A stretch of DNA of 59,740 nt from Phycisphaerae bacterium (GTDB taxonomy: Bacteria; Planctomycetota; Phycisphaerae; Phycisphaerales; SM1A02), in NCBI GenBank assembly GCA_016873335.1, contig VGXN01000005.1, forward strand, positions 1 to 59,740, written 5' to 3'. Position 1 is the first letter of the stretch, and every line of letters starts with the position of its first letter. The position numbers were made by a program, and so were the translations under genes. Below are positions 52,817 through 59,619 of the stretch, piece after piece. A model generated the notes under the pieces. It was not told the DNA's origin. It searched no databases and saw nothing but the letters and a program-made list of their open reading frames with translations.

Positions 52817-53085
52817 CCACGGGGCAGTCCACCATCCGCAACTCGCTCGGGCTTCACGCGCGACCCGCGATGACCTTTGTGCAATGTGCCAACGCATTCG
52901 CATCCTCGGTGCGAGTGCGCCGCTGCGATGCCGCGGAGTGGGTCGATGGCAAGAGCATCATGCAGATGCTGCTCCTGGCGGCGACGTGTGGGTCGCACAT
53001 CGAAATCGAGTGCACTGGCAACGATGAACAAGCTGCGCTCGATGCGCTCCTTGATCTGGTCAATCGCCGATTCGATGAAGAGTGA
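52813..53085 (+). CDS. ptsH: phosphocarrier protein HPr
   Basis: The 90-residue protein has the HPr active site G-L-H15-A-R-P-A and a regulatory Ser48 in DGKSIMQML, with the EC-helix that follows. It accepts phosphate from Enzyme I and passes it to EIIA; Ser phosphorylation by HPr kinase is possible. No Enzyme I or HprK gene is in the window. The GTG start overlaps EIIA (GTGA). Its 3' end overlaps obg by 26 bases on the opposite strand. Confidence 0.92.
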   Translation: MTTGQSTIRNSLGLHARPAMTFVQCANAFASSVRVRRCDAAEWVDGKSIMQMLLLAATCGSHIEIECTGNDEQAALDALLDLVNRRFDEE

Positions 53086-54109
53086 CTGGCTCCGCAGCCC
53101 GCGCGTCCTGCACGGCGTTCCAGACGTTCTCAAGCACATCGCGAACTCCGATGCCCGTGGCACCGCTCGCCACAAGCGGCGTGACGCCGCGGTCTCGCTT
53201 GAAACGCCGCACGACTTCGTCGACAACGCTCCCGCGATCCTCCTCGGCGATCAGATCCACCTTGTTCAACACCACGAGTTCACGCTTGCGCGCAAGCCCT
53301 TCGCTGAACTCGGCGAGTTCACGGCGAATCATGCGGTGATTCTCGAGTGGGTCCGATCCATCGACGGGCGCGATGTCCACGACATGCAGGAGAACACGCG
53401 TCCGTTCGACGTGACGGAGGAAGTCATGTCCAAGCCCCGCACCCTGCGACGCCCCTTCGATCAGCCCCGGAAGATCCGCGAGCACCAACCGCCGCTCCCC
53501 CGGCAACTCGGCGATGCCAAGCTGCGGTGAGAGCGTTGTGAACGGATAGTCCGCCACTTTCGGATGCGCGCGCGTCGTGGACTTCAGCATCGTGCTCTTC
53601 CCGGCGTTTGGAAGCCCGACAAATCCGACATCCGCGATCAACAGCAGTTCGATGCGCAGGAGCCGCTCGATCGGCTCGCCGGCCGGTGAAGTCTCCGTCG
53701 GCGTCTGGTGGACCGCGCTCTTGAAGTGCACGTTGCCCCTCCCCCCGATGCCGCCCTGCGCCACCACAACGGTCTGCCCCGCCTCGGTGATGTCCGCCAC
53801 CAGATCGCCCGTCTGCGCATCGAACACGCGCGATCCAAGCGGCAACTCGATGATGCGGTCCACACCCTCCTTGCCATTGCAGTTCTTGCGCGACCCAGGC
53901 TCGCCGTCCGTCGCGCTCCAATGCGGTTGGTAGGCAAACTGCACGAGCGTGTCGAGATGCGGATTGCCACGCGCCACGACATCGCCACCCTTGCCGCCAT
54001 CGCCGCCATCGGGACCGCCCTTGGCGTTCCCCTTCATGCGCAGCAGATGCCGCGAGCCCGCACCTCCGCGACCGGAGCGCACGGTGATGATGGCGGAGTC
54101 AACGAACAT
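53060..54109 (-). CDS. obg: GTPase Obg
   Basis: The 349-residue protein has the glycine-rich OBG fold (FVDSAIITVRSGRGGAGSRH, GGPDGGDGGKGGDV), then a GTPase domain with G1 GLPNAGKS (165-172), G3 DLPGLIEGA and G4 NKVD. It acts in ribosome assembly and stress control. The ATG at 54109 is the family start; the frame to 54169 is not used. It is convergent with ptsH. Confidence 0.95.
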   Translation of the reverse strand: MFVDSAIITVRSGRGGAGSRHLLRMKGNAKGGPDGGDGGKGGDVVARGNPHLDTLVQFAYQPHWSATDGEPGSRKNCNGKEGVDRIIELPLGSRVFDAQTGDLVADITEAGQTVVVAQGGIGGRGNVHFKSAVHQTPTETSPAGEPIERLLRIELLLIADVGFVGLPNAGKSTMLKSTTRAHPKVADYPFTTLSPQLGIAELPGERRLVLADLPGLIEGASQGAGLGHDFLRHVERTRVLLHVVDIAPVDGSDPLENHRMIRRELAEFSEGLARKRELVVLNKVDLIAEEDRGSVVDEVVRRFKRDRGVTPLVASGATGIGVRDVLENVWNAVQDARAAEPVTLHRIGD

Positions 54110-55297: not shown

Positions 55298-56230
55298 ATG
55301 GGACGGCTCCCGCCACGTGATCAGGAAGTGCAAGAGGTCTCTGACGTGCTCCGTGAGGAGGCGGTCGTGCTCGCCTTTGGCGGCTCGCGCATGCGTGCGC
55401 AGCGCGTTCTTGAACGCCCCCGTGATCCATCGCGTGAAGCCGTGCTCGTTCTGCGTGATGACAAGGGGCGTTTGCAGCATGCGGCAGTCCTTGCGCGTGC
55501 TCCTGGGCGCACGGCACTGCTGACGATGTCCCCTCTGCGCGGCGCGGCAGACCGTCCGCGCGGCGCGCTGCTTGTCCGCGAAGCCATCGTGACGGCGCAG
55601 CGGATGGACGCCGCGGTGGTGCAGGCTCTCGTGGAGCCTCTGGCAAAGGATGATCTCGCCGCGATGGAGTCGGGGGGGATGCATCACATTGCGACGCTTG
55701 CGTATCTCGAACGAGCTGCGACGCGCGAGTGCCGCCCCCTGCCCCCAGCGCACTCCGAGATTCGCATCAGCCCGTGGGACGGAAGACAGCGTGACATGCT
55801 CGAGTCGCTGCTGTCCATGACATATGTGGATTCGCTCGACTGCCCGGGACTCGCAGAGTTGCGAAGCACGCGGGACATTCTCGATGGACACCTTTCGACA
55901 GGCGTGCTTGATTCGCGTTTGTGGCTGCTGCTCGAGTGGCGCGGCGAGACGGTCGGTGCATGCTTCATCAGCGAGATCCCGTCATCGCGCTGCATGGAAC
56001 TTGTCTACTTCGGGTTGATCCCGCGGGCTCGCGGCATCGGACTTGGGCGCGTCCTGCTTGATCACGCGCTCGCGCTCCTGAAGAGTGATCTGCGCGGTCC
56101 CGTCGCGCTTGCCTGCGATGAACGCAACACACCTGCCATGAGGCTCTACGCATCGCGCGGATTCGCCCCGCGCTTGCGGCGCGCAGCGCTTGTGTGCAAG
56201 GTGGCAACAGCCCGGCAGTCGCCCCACTGA
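55298..56230 (+). CDS. GNAT-family N-acetyltransferase
   Basis: The 310-residue protein has a C-terminal GNAT domain with the acetyl-CoA motif RARGIGLGRVLLDHAL (about 244-259), preceded by MELVYFGLIP and followed by ACDERNTPAMRLYASRGF. The N-terminal ~150 residues are another, degenerate GNAT-like or unrelated domain. The substrate is unknown. The ATG at 55298 is used; the open frame upstream to 54725 is antisense to the secreted-protein gene. Confidence 0.8.
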   Translation: MGRLPPRDQEVQEVSDVLREEAVVLAFGGSRMRAQRVLERPRDPSREAVLVLRDDKGRLQHAAVLARAPGRTALLTMSPLRGAADRPRGALLVREAIVTAQRMDAAVVQALVEPLAKDDLAAMESGGMHHIATLAYLERAATRECRPLPPAHSEIRISPWDGRQRDMLESLLSMTYVDSLDCPGLAELRSTRDILDGHLSTGVLDSRLWLLLEWRGETVGACFISEIPSSRCMELVYFGLIPRARGIGLGRVLLDHALALLKSDLRGPVALACDERNTPAMRLYASRGFAPRLRRAALVCKVATARQSPH

Positions 56231-56581
56231 GTTTCCCACAAGTTGTAGACAACTCTGCACGGCCGCGACTGTCCGAAAAGACCAGAACGCGCATATCCCG
56301 CCCAGAGCGGCACATGTGAAACACGAACTGGAAACACCGCCGAGGAGCCTTGTCAATGTTTCCGACAGCGATAGTTTTGCACCTCTGTGCCTCACGGACC
56401 GAGGCGCATTCGTTGGGCTGAAGGCAGGTGGGCGGCTGGCGTGCGGATCCAAGTCCGAGAGCCACCGCCCCCTGCCGCCTCCCACGTCTCTCCCGGACGG
56501 ATCCGAATCCCCATATCGGTCTCCTGCGTGAACTGCATTTGAGTTTGCAGTGCGCTGTCCGTCGGCTCTGACACTCCTCCG
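56231..56581. other. non-coding region upstream of dnaA, possible origin of replication
   Basis: This 351-base gap holds four GTTTC(C/A)-type motifs: GTTTCCCACA (56231-56240, plus), TGTGAAAC (56315-56322, i.e. GTTTCACA minus), TGGAAAC (56329-56335, minus) and GTTTCCG (56358-56364, plus). The first matches seven of nine bases of the standard DnaA box. A perfect AGTTGT-AG-ACAACT palindrome (56241-56254) abuts it. A GC-rich imperfect stem (about 56426-56479) follows. No AT-rich unwinding stretch is obvious, so the origin role is tentative. Confidence 0.4.
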
Positions 56582-58060
56582 ATGATTCAAATGCCTCACC
56601 AACCCGCTGCGCACCTTGGCAGCGGCAACACTCGGCGGCTGCACGAGGCGCTGATCCGCCGCGTGGGCCCATCGCGGCACGGCTTGTGGCTTGTCGACAA
56701 CGCGACCCTTGCGGTGACCGACCGGCGGCTCTGCGTGCACGCGGCGAGTCGCTTCGCAGCGGAATGGATCGAGCGGCACTTTCACGTTCACCTTCGGGCT
56801 GCCGCGGATGAGGTGCTTGGAACCGAAGCGGTCATCGACATCTCCATCGCTGCCGCGTGCGCCGAGCCGCCGACAGACATCGCGGCAGCCGATGAGTCGA
56901 CAAGGGAGACACTCCCCCTGCACCTGACCAGTCCAGCTCCGCAGGCCGCGCACGCCCGTTCACTGGAGAGCCGACCGAATGCGCCTCGTGCCGCTTCGAG
57001 CCACCGATCAATGTGGAAGCGGTTCGATGACTTTCTGGTCTGCTGTGGCAATCGCATGGCGTTCGACAGCGCCGTACGAATGGCGGAACGCGCAGCAGAC
57101 ACACCACACATGCTCTTCCTGCATGGCGCGTGCGGCGTTGGCAAGACGCATCTGTGCGAAGCGCTTTGCCGCCGCTTCACCGAGTGCACGCCGGAGGCAC
57201 GCATTCGTTGCATCACGGGCGAGCAGTTCACCAATGAGTTCATCGCGGCCGTCCGCGACGGCTCCATCGAGTCAATCCGTCGCCGTCAGCGGCGACACGA
57301 TCTGCTGGTGATCGACGATGTCCACTTCCTCGGCAACAAGAACGCGACGCAGTCGGAGTGCCTGCACACGCTGGATGCGATTGCTGCAGGCGGCGGTCGA
57401 GTGGTGTTGGCATCCGATGCGCACCCTCGGGCGATCGCGCGGTGCAGCCCTGCACTTGTCAGTCGTTTTCTTGCGGGACTGGTGGTGCAGGTTGAGCCCC
57501 TCGACCGAACTGGACGGATCGCGCTGGCCAAGCGGCGGCTTGCTGCGCGTGGACTCGATCTGGTCCCGACGGCCCTCGAGGCTCTTGTCGATCGGTCTGG
57601 CACAAGCATCCGCGAACTGGAAGGGGCCGTCCTGACCGTGTGCGCCCACCAGGCGTCACTCGGCTCCACCGCGGAGAGCGGGCATGTGCTTGTGGCACGG
57701 GCACTTGGTCATGCGGAACCGCCGCGTTCCGGTCGCCCAGTGCGGCTGTCGGAGATCATTGCAGCCGTGTGCGTGGAAACCGGACTTGAGACATCGGAAC
57801 TGCTTGGCGCTGGTCGCCATCGGCGCGTTGCCACGGCGCGCGGGCTCGCTGCGCTCCTCGCGCGCGAACTGACCACCTGTTCGTTTCCAGAGATTGCCGC
57901 GGCGCTCGGACGTTCAAGCCACTCTGCGGTGCACGCAGCGGCCACCAAGTACCGCACCTCGGTCGAGCAGCGCGAACAGGTGGATGTCGCCGGTCATCGG
58001 ATCGGAGCAGACTCGCTTGTGGAACGCACCCGGCGCAGCATTCTGACGGTGCGCGGCTGA
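56582..58060 (+). CDS. dnaA: chromosomal replication initiator protein DnaA
   Basis: The 492-residue protein has an N-terminal domain I, a variable linker (about 95-140) and the AAA+ domain: Walker A GACGVGKT (182-189), Walker B LLVIDDVHF (241-249), SRF Arg-finger region and GTSIRELEGAV sensor 2. DNA-binding domain IV runs from about 388. In the signature helix, the usual GRDHTTV reads RSSHSAV: the positions equal to E. coli R432, D433 and T436 are Ser445, Ser446 and Ala449, while the His (447) is kept. Box specificity is therefore probably altered. dnaN is not adjacent. Confidence 0.85.
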   Translation: MIQMPHQPAAHLGSGNTRRLHEALIRRVGPSRHGLWLVDNATLAVTDRRLCVHAASRFAAEWIERHFHVHLRAAADEVLGTEAVIDISIAAACAEPPTDIAAADESTRETLPLHLTSPAPQAAHARSLESRPNAPRAASSHRSMWKRFDDFLVCCGNRMAFDSAVRMAERAADTPHMLFLHGACGVGKTHLCEALCRRFTECTPEARIRCITGEQFTNEFIAAVRDGSIESIRRRQRRHDLLVIDDVHFLGNKNATQSECLHTLDAIAAGGGRVVLASDAHPRAIARCSPALVSRFLAGLVVQVEPLDRTGRIALAKRRLAARGLDLVPTALEALVDRSGTSIRELEGAVLTVCAHQASLGSTAESGHVLVARALGHAEPPRSGRPVRLSEIIAAVCVETGLETSELLGAGRHRRVATARGLAALLARELTTCSFPEIAAALGRSSHSAVHAAATKYRTSVEQREQVDVAGHRIGADSLVERTRRSILTVRG

Positions 58061-58081
58061 CGCGAAACGAAGGCAGACCGT

Positions 58082-58087
58082 TACACT
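58082..58087 (+). promoter_or_regulatory. -10 element of the secreted helical-repeat gene
   Basis: TACACT ends eight bases before the ATG at 58096; no Shine-Dalgarno sequence is present. A CTGACG lies 19 bases upstream. Confidence 0.4.
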
Positions 58088-58095
58088 CGCGGCGC

Positions 58096-59619
58096 ATGGT
58101 GGCTGCGTGTTTCCAGATTGGCGTGACTCGTGCAGTGCACGGCGCTGTCCTTGCTGCGGTGCTGTGGTTGCCACCATCGCCTACGTCGGCGCAGTACGGT
58201 CGCACCGATCATGTCGAGGGCGCCATCTCAACGCTGAAGCGTTGCTCGCTCCCCAGTCCGCGGGGCGACCACCACACACTGATCGTTGCACTTCGAGCGT
58301 TGGAAGATCCGGCACTCGCGCCGTTCTATGAGGCGCTGCTCACGTCGCCCGACTGGCGCTCGCGAATCGATGGCATCCTCGGTCTTGCCGAACTGTCGAA
58401 GGAGAGGGACCTCAATCTCGATCTCGTGCTTGCCCTCCCGAGTGCCGAGGACCGTTCGACCGCCATTCGTGCCGCGATCGGATTCGAACTGCTGAAGCCG
58501 AAGAATCTGCGCGCGCTGCTCGATGAACCCGACGTGCCATCCGTGGATGCGCTTGTGATCTGCGGCGAACTGCATCGACAGGGGCAGCCATTCCCCGCGA
58601 ATGCCGTGCGTTCGGCGTGTGCTGACCCCGCGGATGACATCGCTGGTCTCGCATCACTCCTGCTGATGGAGTCCGGCGATGACTCGGCGTGGAAAGCCTT
58701 TGTCGAGCGCTGGTCTTCGCGAAGCGACGAGATTCGCAACACGACGCTGCAGGAACTTGCGCGGGTTGGGCTGCTGTACCGCCTGAAGTCCTCGGTCCGT
58801 GGACTCGGCGAACTCGCGCGAAAGCCAAACATCAACGCGGCAACGCTCATGATGGTGAACGCCACCGCGCTTGCGCTCGAACCGAAACTTGGCGCGCGAA
58901 TGTGGAGCACCTTTGTGGAACGGGAGCGTTCACAGGCACTGCTCCTGCGAGCAGGACTGCAACTGCTCGCCCACGAAGCTGCGTGCGAAGCTGGTCTCGG
59001 TGCAAAGTTGCGGAATGGTGAGCCGCTTGTCGATGCGATTGCCGACGCGATCGATGCCAGTGCTGGTGGCGATCCGGATGCGATGGCATCGGCACTTGAA
59101 GTGGTCATCGACCGTGCAAACAAGACCAGCGCGGAGTGGGCGATTCGTCGTGCGGCTTCGCTGCCCGCGCCGCAGGCGACCCGAGTGTGGAAGCACTTGA
59201 TTGATGCCTTTCTTGGAGCGCCCGCAAATGCGATGGCGCTCTCGCCAGTTGTGCTTGATGCGGCGACGCGACTGGCGGGGAGCAACCCTGAGTTGCTCGA
59301 GCCCATGATCCGCAACGCAGATGGTGAACGGCAAGTGCAGGAGGTGCTGCTGCTGGCGCTGTGCAATGCCAGTTCGGCTGGAGGTGCGGCTGTGGCAGAG
59401 AAGGTGCGCGGGCAGTTGAGTCGCCGCGGGGATGCGTTGGCGCTTCTGGCGATTGCGCGCGCGCGCGCTGAGTTGACGCCCCAGATTCGAAGCGATCTGG
59501 GCATCGTTGCCGCGGGTGGCGGCGATCTCGATCAAAGCCTGCTCGCCCAAGCGGCATGGTTGTTCGTCAAGAGCAGCGGCAAGCAGGACAGTGCGCTCGA
59601 GCAGATGCGTGCGCCATGA
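58096..59619 (+). CDS. secreted helical-repeat protein of unknown function
   Basis: The 507-residue protein has a signal-like N-terminus (about 10-32, ending PTSAQ) and is otherwise alpha-helical, with repeating helix pairs such as LIVALRALEDPALAPFYEALL, SRIDGILGLAELSKE and TTLQELARVGLLYRLKS. The pattern resembles HEAT-like repeats but no family is recognised. The downstream aminotransferase gene overlaps by four bases (ATGA), suggesting an operon. Confidence 0.7.
   Translation: MVAACFQIGVTRAVHGAVLAAVLWLPPSPTSAQYGRTDHVEGAISTLKRCSLPSPRGDHHTLIVALRALEDPALAPFYEALLTSPDWRSRIDGILGLAELSKERDLNLDLVLALPSAEDRSTAIRAAIGFELLKPKNLRALLDEPDVPSVDALVICGELHRQGQPFPANAVRSACADPADDIAGLASLLLMESGDDSAWKAFVERWSSRSDEIRNTTLQELARVGLLYRLKSSVRGLGELARKPNINAATLMMVNATALALEPKLGARMWSTFVERERSQALLLRAGLQLLAHEAACEAGLGAKLRNGEPLVDAIADAIDASAGGDPDAMASALEVVIDRANKTSAEWAIRRAASLPAPQATRVWKHLIDAFLGAPANAMALSPVVLDAATRLAGSNPELLEPMIRNADGERQVQEVLLLALCNASSAGGAAVAEKVRGQLSRRGDALALLAIARARAELTPQIRSDLGIVAAGGGDLDQSLLAQAAWLFVKSSGKQDSALEQMRAP

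Follow-up and report, generated by a model that had tools for sequence, protein, structure and literature searches.

The gene dnaA2 (56582..58060, + strand), identified by its open reading frame, Pfam matches and trees, encodes a divergent DnaA paralog of 492 amino acids that is likely a DnaA with an ATP switch and that probably regulates its own expression. With a probability that we put slightly above even, DnaA2 would be a second DnaA in which the ATP switch is intact and the DNA reader is altered, whose gene is preceded by a phased pair of half-sites and is autoregulated, as we infer, and which does not open the replication origin. The window, that is, the whole 59,740-nucleotide stretch of DNA that was analyzed, is contig C5 of an assembly (G000) of 1,996,029 bases in 228 contigs, with 90.43% completeness.

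The DnaA2 protein and its ancestry

Two Pfam domains place the window protein in the DnaA superfamily: Bac_DnaA (PF00308; 133.7 bits, gathering score 23) and Bac_DnaA_C (PF08299; 54.5 bits, gathering score 31.5). Domain I (approximately residues 13 to 90; 56618..56851, +) scored 21.4 bits with DnaA_N, below the cutoff of 24.6 bits, and its predicted fold was confident. Domain III, the AAA+ domain (approximately residues 147 to 375; 57020..57706, +), contains the Walker A residue K188, the Walker B residues D245 and D246, the arginine finger R295, and the sensor II residue R344. It is followed by domain IV, the box-reading helix-turn-helix (approximately residues 389 to 462; 57746..57967, +), and, in the predicted model, by a C-terminal hairpin and helix (residues 466 to 489; 57977..58048, +). 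The model, made from 48 sequences, had a mean pLDDT of 85.2 and a pTM of 0.56 and comprised domains I, III, and IV plus this hairpin and helix; the solved structures that matched it best were DnaA structures, with a DnaA structure from the basal origin unwinding system (8btg) at the top. The median number of residues after H434 was 47 in the DnaA2 proteins of the order versus 37 in its canonical DnaA proteins.

With the DnaA equivalog model TIGR00362 (cutoff, 343.9 bits), the window protein scored 271.1 bits and thus fell below the cutoff, as did L038, its nearest relative in the comparison set (85% identical; 265.8 bits); the canonical DnaA of G010 scored 460.8 bits. Three second copies from outside the order exceeded the cutoff (L230, 435.3; L226, 359.7; L227, 429.5), and it was reached neither by the short copy L217 (234.0) nor by L236, of unclear type (317.1). 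Compared with the TIGR00362 proteins of E. coli and B. subtilis, DnaA2 likewise has domains I, III, and IV, Walker A and B motifs, the R285 finger, and sensor II, but it is changed at D433, H439, T435, and R281, is longer by about ten C-terminal residues, and is not encoded at the origin where the skew is clear. The Hda model TIGR03420 gave 84.7 bits, below its cutoff of 194.8 bits; Hda is a DnaA-derived AAA+ regulator, as DnaA2 would be, and it lacks domain IV. The model PRK12422, which we take to be linked to Chlamydiae, does not single out DnaA2.

The altered domain IV signature reported in the earlier note is real: alignment with E. coli DnaA gave GRSSHSAV in place of GGRDHTTV at residues 443 to 450 (57908..57931, +), with D433, H434, T435, and H439 of E. 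coli corresponding to S446, H447, S448, and A452 of the window protein. The base-contacting residues of DnaA are given in PMC7561715 as R399, P423, D433, H434, T435, and H439. The window protein departs from this canonical origin-reading set, keeping R399, P423, and H434 and having D433, T435, and H439 changed. Residues were counted, in E. coli numbering, over 37 DnaA2 and 33 DnaA1 (canonical) proteins of the order. D433 was present in all 33 DnaA1 and in none of the 37 DnaA2 proteins (N17, S12, T4, G2, H1, A1), and the same held for H439 (A18, T17, G1, Q1 in DnaA2); T435 was replaced by serine in 36 of 37 DnaA2 proteins, and R399, R407, P423, and H434 were unchanged in all 37. At the P423 position, the order's own canonical DnaA1 has E or Q. 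Eleven second copies from outside the order were also without D433 (H2 N2 and N4 S2 K1) and H439 (L3 Q1 and S5 F2). Five short DnaA copies of another class had N2, D2, and T1 at D433 and H439 in all five; D433 has therefore been lost outside DnaA2 as well, which speaks against a simple reading of this change.

The ATP-switch residues K178, D235, D236, R285, and R334 were intact in 37 of 37 DnaA2 proteins of the order, the window protein included. F46, the helicase-contact residue of E. coli DnaA, was present in 35 of 37 DnaA2 proteins (V27, I5, L1 in DnaA1); its retention would suit an initiator role and is a point against the explanation that we prefer. R281 was present in 33 of 33 DnaA1 versus 2 of 37 DnaA2 proteins. 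The position of R245, which in E. coli DnaA binds single-stranded origin DNA (PMC5835720), was A29, K7, and S1 in DnaA2 and R18 and Q15 in DnaA1.

Paralogy is widespread. A search with PF08299 of 61 genomes (the window's own and 60 relatives) found at least two proteins in 48 genomes, one in 12, and none in 1, with two score types (about 89 to 109 bits and about 44 to 79 bits) plus two weaker extra copies. The single proteins were of the weaker, paralog type in 11 of the 12 genomes, including that of the window, and of the stronger type in G028. Across the phylum, evenly sampled with 148 genomes, at least two DnaA-C proteins were found in 114, one in 32, and none in 2. Three genomes of a single family, f38 (G145, G164, and G195), had five or six DnaA-C matches each.

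The DnaA2 and DnaA1 proteins of the order, drawn from part of the genomes searched, had been told apart by their phmmer scores against the window protein, no score falling between 212.8 and 187.3 bits, and the trees agreed with this sorting. In a quick tree of 96 rows, all 37 DnaA2 proteins formed one group (support, 100), which 12 second copies from other parts of the class and phylum joined behind a branch with support of 96; the DnaA1 and DnaA2 proteins of the order were parted by a branch with support of 100, and the short copies of another class lay outside both groups on long branches. A more careful tree had 45 rows, with 14 of the 37 DnaA2 and 14 of the 33 DnaA1 proteins and with nine rows omitted (eight long-branched or short copies and the near-identical G123b). 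DnaA1 and DnaA2 of the order again fell on opposite sides of a branch (support, 100/100), E. coli DnaA sat with DnaA1, and a 100/98 branch separated both from all second copies retained. The two trees disagreed on how the second copies from other classes branch. DnaA2 stems from a duplication that the trees place before the class. Duplications at the level of the order (p-AU, 1.7e-47) and of the class (p-AU, 9.9e-6), each uniting DnaA1 and DnaA2 in one clade, were rejected, with p-AU values that are optimistic because the groups were named after the first tree had been seen.

Half-sites in front of dnaA2

DnaA-type sites before the gene, as expected of an autoregulated DnaA, were found at most dnaA2 loci of the order: an inverted pair of the half-sites TTNTCCAC and GTGGANAA, with at most one mismatch, lay upstream of 66 of 106 dnaA2 genes (not independent counts, since the genomes are related) versus 9 of 3,456 control stretches. 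The 106 loci were the 108 order loci left after removal of duplicates, less two with short upstream sequence. In 59 of the 66 pairs versus 1 of the 9 controls, the start-to-start spacing was 12 to 14, 23 to 26, or 34 to 37 bases, close to whole helical turns (one to three), these ranges having been chosen after a two-mismatch scan had been viewed. That scan found an inverted pair in 85 of 126 upstream regions (nine of them outside the order) versus 74 of 2,021 controls. At least one exact half-site was present in 85 of 106 upstream regions of dnaA2 versus 95 of 1,827 controls. The pair was not found in 40 of the 106 upstream regions, among them that of the window, where it has decayed. The conservation of the pair before the gene suggests that a DnaA, possibly DnaA2 itself, controls dnaA2. 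The possibility that a –35 element lies between the half-sites was considered and rejected, since GACA occurred close to the expected offset in only 11 of 38 pairs with long spacing.

Within the genus, the pattern TTNTCCACN5GTGGANAA (at most one mismatch) occurred in 17 of 19 genomes, at a single place in each, and in 16 of these 17 the place was the gap between the GNAT gene and dnaA2, the exception being G013; among the 19 genomes scanned, it was not found in G000 or G003. A reversed control pattern matched 1 of the 19 genomes. With spacers of 4 to 34 bases and no mismatch, matches were found in 38 of 61 genomes, at dnaA2 and elsewhere, including near dnaA1 in G033, G036, G048, and G049; the claim of a private site is therefore limited to the genus and to the form with a spacing of 13. 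The window assembly itself has exact inverted half-sites with a start-to-start spacing of 17 away from dnaA2 (G000:C43:4760-4784), which may be a chance occurrence. In this wider scan, the reversed control pattern had 30 and 10 matches per strand in G017 and G021, respectively, and these genomes may hold a resembling repeat family.

Boxes with at most one mismatch to TTATCCACA were counted on either side of both genes in the order. A total of 41 lay in 16,500 bases behind dnaA1 and none in 11,565 bases before it; 38 lay in 18,500 bases before dnaA2 and 1 in 18,500 bases behind it. All 41 boxes behind dnaA1 had A at position 9, versus 27 of 38 before dnaA2 (p 1.3e-4), and with at most two mismatches 86 of 96 had it versus 50 of 90 (p 1.5e-7); position 3 differed less (p 0.13 with one mismatch and 0.003 with two), and any difference in the TCCAC core was toward greater strictness before dnaA2 (31 of 38 versus 28 of 41, p 0.20, with one mismatch; 65 of 90 versus 42 of 96, p 1e-4, with two), all these p values being optimistic because the genomes are related. 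Within the pairs, the strictness of the TCCAC core is partly built into the scan. The sites before dnaA2 differ from the boxes beside dnaA1 chiefly in that A is no longer required at position 9. The earlier note had proposed that a changed DnaA and changed sites may have evolved together. This idea survives in part, in that the residues are changed throughout the order and the DnaA-type sites differ at position 9, and fails as regards the origin and the GTTTCC motifs that the note had in mind: protein and sites may have changed together, at the front of dnaA2 itself.

In a rather unlikely alternative, the protein that binds the pair is DnaA1; it would then govern dnaA2 and place DnaA2 downstream of the initiation cycle, as one of its outputs. 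The half-sites before dnaA2 are close to TTATCCACA, and repression of E. coli dnaA through a DnaA box is described in PMC5835720. However, A at position 9 is constant behind dnaA1 and less frequent before dnaA2, and the lack of boxes with at most one mismatch 5' of dnaA1 suggests that DnaA1 makes no use of them at its own locus.

In the explanation that we prefer, the inverted pair would be bound by a DnaA, most probably DnaA2 in the form of an ATP-dependent dimer or short oligomer, which would in this way set the expression level of its own gene. DnaA2 might, more tentatively, leave the opening of the origin to others and yet influence initiation, either through ATP-dependent contacts or mixed assemblies with canonical DnaA or by sharing near-canonical sites with it. 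The canonical DnaA gene would adjoin the likely origin. In the lineage of the window the pair has partly decayed. Besides the retention of F46, this explanation has against it the 40 upstream regions in which the pair was not found, the absence of a sigma-70-like promoter from the interval searched before the window gene, the loss of D433 in some short DnaA copies, the local skew change in G046, and the inverted half-sites at other places in some genera.

Location of the origin and comparison with known systems

GC skew was taken from 20-kb samples of five single-contig genomes, of which G056, G027, and G046 belong to the order. The skew of G056 passed from negative to positive within the stretch holding canonical dnaA (2.44 Mb), with dnaA2 at 0.84 Mb. 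In G027 it turned between 1.41 and 1.54 Mb, adjoining canonical dnaA (1.40 Mb), with dnaA2 at 2.20 Mb; two later samples (2.30 and 3.33 Mb) contradict the sign. In G163, from another class, the turn was at the start of the record beside a short DnaA, and the long copy was at 0.50 Mb. In these relatives with clear skew, dnaA2 lay away from the turn, by 1.6, 0.8, and 0.5 Mb, respectively, and an origin at dnaA2 was rejected there, the turns being at or next to canonical dnaA or the short DnaA. The picture to which the earlier note points, of a DnaA reading a re-coded origin beside its gene, conflicts with the skew of G056 and G027, which changes sign at canonical dnaA or adjoining it; a sign change elsewhere was among the findings that the note itself had named as refuting. 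The skew of G046 was noisy, with a local negative-to-positive change in the dnaA2 stretch that was gone 150 kb further on. G148 turned near 3.3 Mb, away from both dnaA genes and about 0.5 Mb from dnaA2; a second turn in this genome was near 1.0 Mb, and its canonical dnaA, at 0.97 Mb, lies by this positive-to-negative turn, as if near the terminus.

A role of DnaA2 as second initiator or co-initiator, with a second origin formed by the sites 5' of dnaA2, is improbable. DnaA-type sites at dnaA2, the intact AAA+ residues, the retention of F46, and the local skew change in G046 would all fit such a role, but the skew turns elsewhere in G056, G027, and G163, and R245 and R281 are mostly lost in DnaA2. 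A candidate oriC lies instead behind dnaA1, where a pair of boxes on the minus and plus strands, 180 to 220 bases apart, was found at 12 of 33 loci versus 0 of 720 control stretches from dnaA2 loci.

In another class, short DnaA proteins of about 340 amino acids are encoded at the very start of the record (L217, L218, and L233, from G077, G163, and G134, respectively); the match of L217 to DnaA starts in the AAA+ domain.

DnaA is usually regarded as a single-copy initiator with one box, and the great majority of genomes are described as having just one copy of dnaA (PMC3080875). Several dnaA copies per genome are already known from Kuenenia, Chlamydiales, and Acidaminococcus. "Candidatus Kuenenia" has three dnaA copies, the origin-defining one being beside dnaN and gyrB (PMC7709395); anammox planctomycetes thus also have several dnaA genes with one linked to the origin, but the available part of that paper describes no separate box-reading class or operator such as those of DnaA2. 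Waddlia, of the Chlamydiales, a related phylum, likewise has two dnaA genes and differs in that neither is linked to the skew minimum (PMC2878342). In Acidaminococcus fermentans, two neighboring dnaA genes are both in an rpmH-dnaA-dnaN cluster by putative origins (PMC4403523); a second dnaA is the shared trait, and dnaA2 lies outside such a cluster. In E. coli, a DnaA box precedes dnaA, as here, but one DnaA serves both the promoter and oriC (PMC5835720), whereas here an inverted, phased pair stands beside a paralog. No description of the DnaA2 paralog or its sites was found in the titles and abstract openings of the open-licence literature searched.

It is possible, if somewhat doubtful, that Planctomycetota have had two DnaA proteins since before the classes split, one canonical and at the origin and the other with a relaxed box and a private operator, in partly insulated circuits. 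If so, a lineage with a second DnaA kept for so long, its recognition residues changed and its operator nearly private, would offer a natural experiment on the evolution of DnaA specificity and on the question whether a DnaA can turn into a plain ATP-dependent regulator. In planctomycete genomes, a dnaA gene is a poor marker of the origin.

The window locus and the canonical gene

In the window, dnaA2 is preceded by a gap of 351 bases (56231-56581, the start of this interval being that given in the earlier note) and by a GNAT acetyltransferase gene (55574..56230, +), the start of which is unsettled, with the frame open from 54725. The genes for the GTPase Obg (53060..54103, –; start unsettled), which belongs to the conserved neighborhood, and for ribosomal protein L27 (54203..54475, –) lie further upstream.

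All four of the GTTTC(C/A) motifs that had been noticed in the gap, in both orientations, were located: GTTTCC at 56231 (+), 56358 (+), and 56330 (–) and GTTTCA at 56317 (–). At least four such motifs occurred in 0 of 2,000 simulated gaps with the gap's own dinucleotide steps (mean, 0.40), for a motif that had been picked after inspection. In the alignment with L038, only the motif at 56317 retains the GTTTCC form; GTTTCC was rejected as a recognition motif because the other three are altered in this nearest relative compared. No site with 0 or 1 mismatch to TTATCCACA is present in 56000-58300, in agreement with the earlier note, which had seen no perfect copy in the gap. The palindrome that it had pointed out is also real and is the element of the gap that is kept in relatives: at 56232..56252 (no strand assigned), the window has a decayed inverted pair of DnaA-type half-sites, TTTCCCAC-5-GTAGACAA, with two mismatches to TTNTCCAC-5-GTGGANAA. 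The palindrome common to both sequences reads TTTTCCACAAGTCGTGGACAA in L038 and TTTCCCACAAGTTGTAGACAA in the window. A scan of 56150-56620 revealed no sigma-70-like promoter.

The position of this repeat, directly 3' of the GNAT gene in the genus, and the hairpin that could form at a spacing of 13 would also suit a transcription terminator of the GNAT gene unrelated to DnaA, and since the near invariance of TCCAC comes partly from the scan, missing compensatory changes weigh little against it. Such a terminator is nevertheless quite improbable: its loop would be 16 to 28 bases at spacings of 24 to 25 and 34 to 36, position 3, which was left unconstrained in the scan, was unpaired in 19 of 22 rows with a spacing of 13 (counted by eye), and no terminator-like site was found in 56150-56620.

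The earlier note had named a second canonical DnaA in the genome as a finding that would speak against it. Most relatives have a canonical DnaA, and the near relatives G008 and G010 carry both dnaA1 and dnaA2; the window assembly has a single PF08299 match, the paralog. The gene 5' of dnaA1 in G010, which encodes a metallo-beta-lactamase fold protein, had no match (E 1e-10) in 11 of 12 genomes without dnaA1, with G010 as the positive control and the 12th genome, G059, left out; the test is weak for G022, G025, and G026, which are from other genera, where this neighbor may be unlinked. A DUF58 gene lies further behind dnaA1, and among the genomes without dnaA1 only G012 and G017 had a close homologue (67 to 68% identity), the others having matches of 29 to 37% identity or none. 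The contigs end 72 bases (G012) and 1,328 bases (G017) past this homologue, the latter distance roughly matching the length of the gene expected next. As both contigs end between the next neighbor and the expected place of dnaA1, a gap in assembly or binning explains the absence best, and canonical dnaA is most likely missing from the window assembly through an assembly gap. True loss was judged unlikely, given the missing neighbor gene and the contig ends in G012 and G017. It is very improbable indeed that the window organism has only DnaA2 and initiates replication with it, as the single match in G000 and the 11 of 61 genomes with only a weaker, paralog-type match would allow, since the assembly is about 90% complete, the dnaA1 neighbor is unmatched in the 11 genomes tested, the contigs of G012 and G017 end before the expected dnaA1, and G008 and G010 have both genes.

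In the genus, dnaA1 is absent from 8 of 19 genomes (G000, G004, G006, G009, G012, G014, G016, and G017), possibly because the higher coverage of origin DNA causes it to be binned separately. Downstream of dnaA2, an open reading frame without a Pfam match (58096..59619, +) encodes a product of 507 amino acids and is kept in relatives, which were found at 25 of 37 dnaA2 loci.
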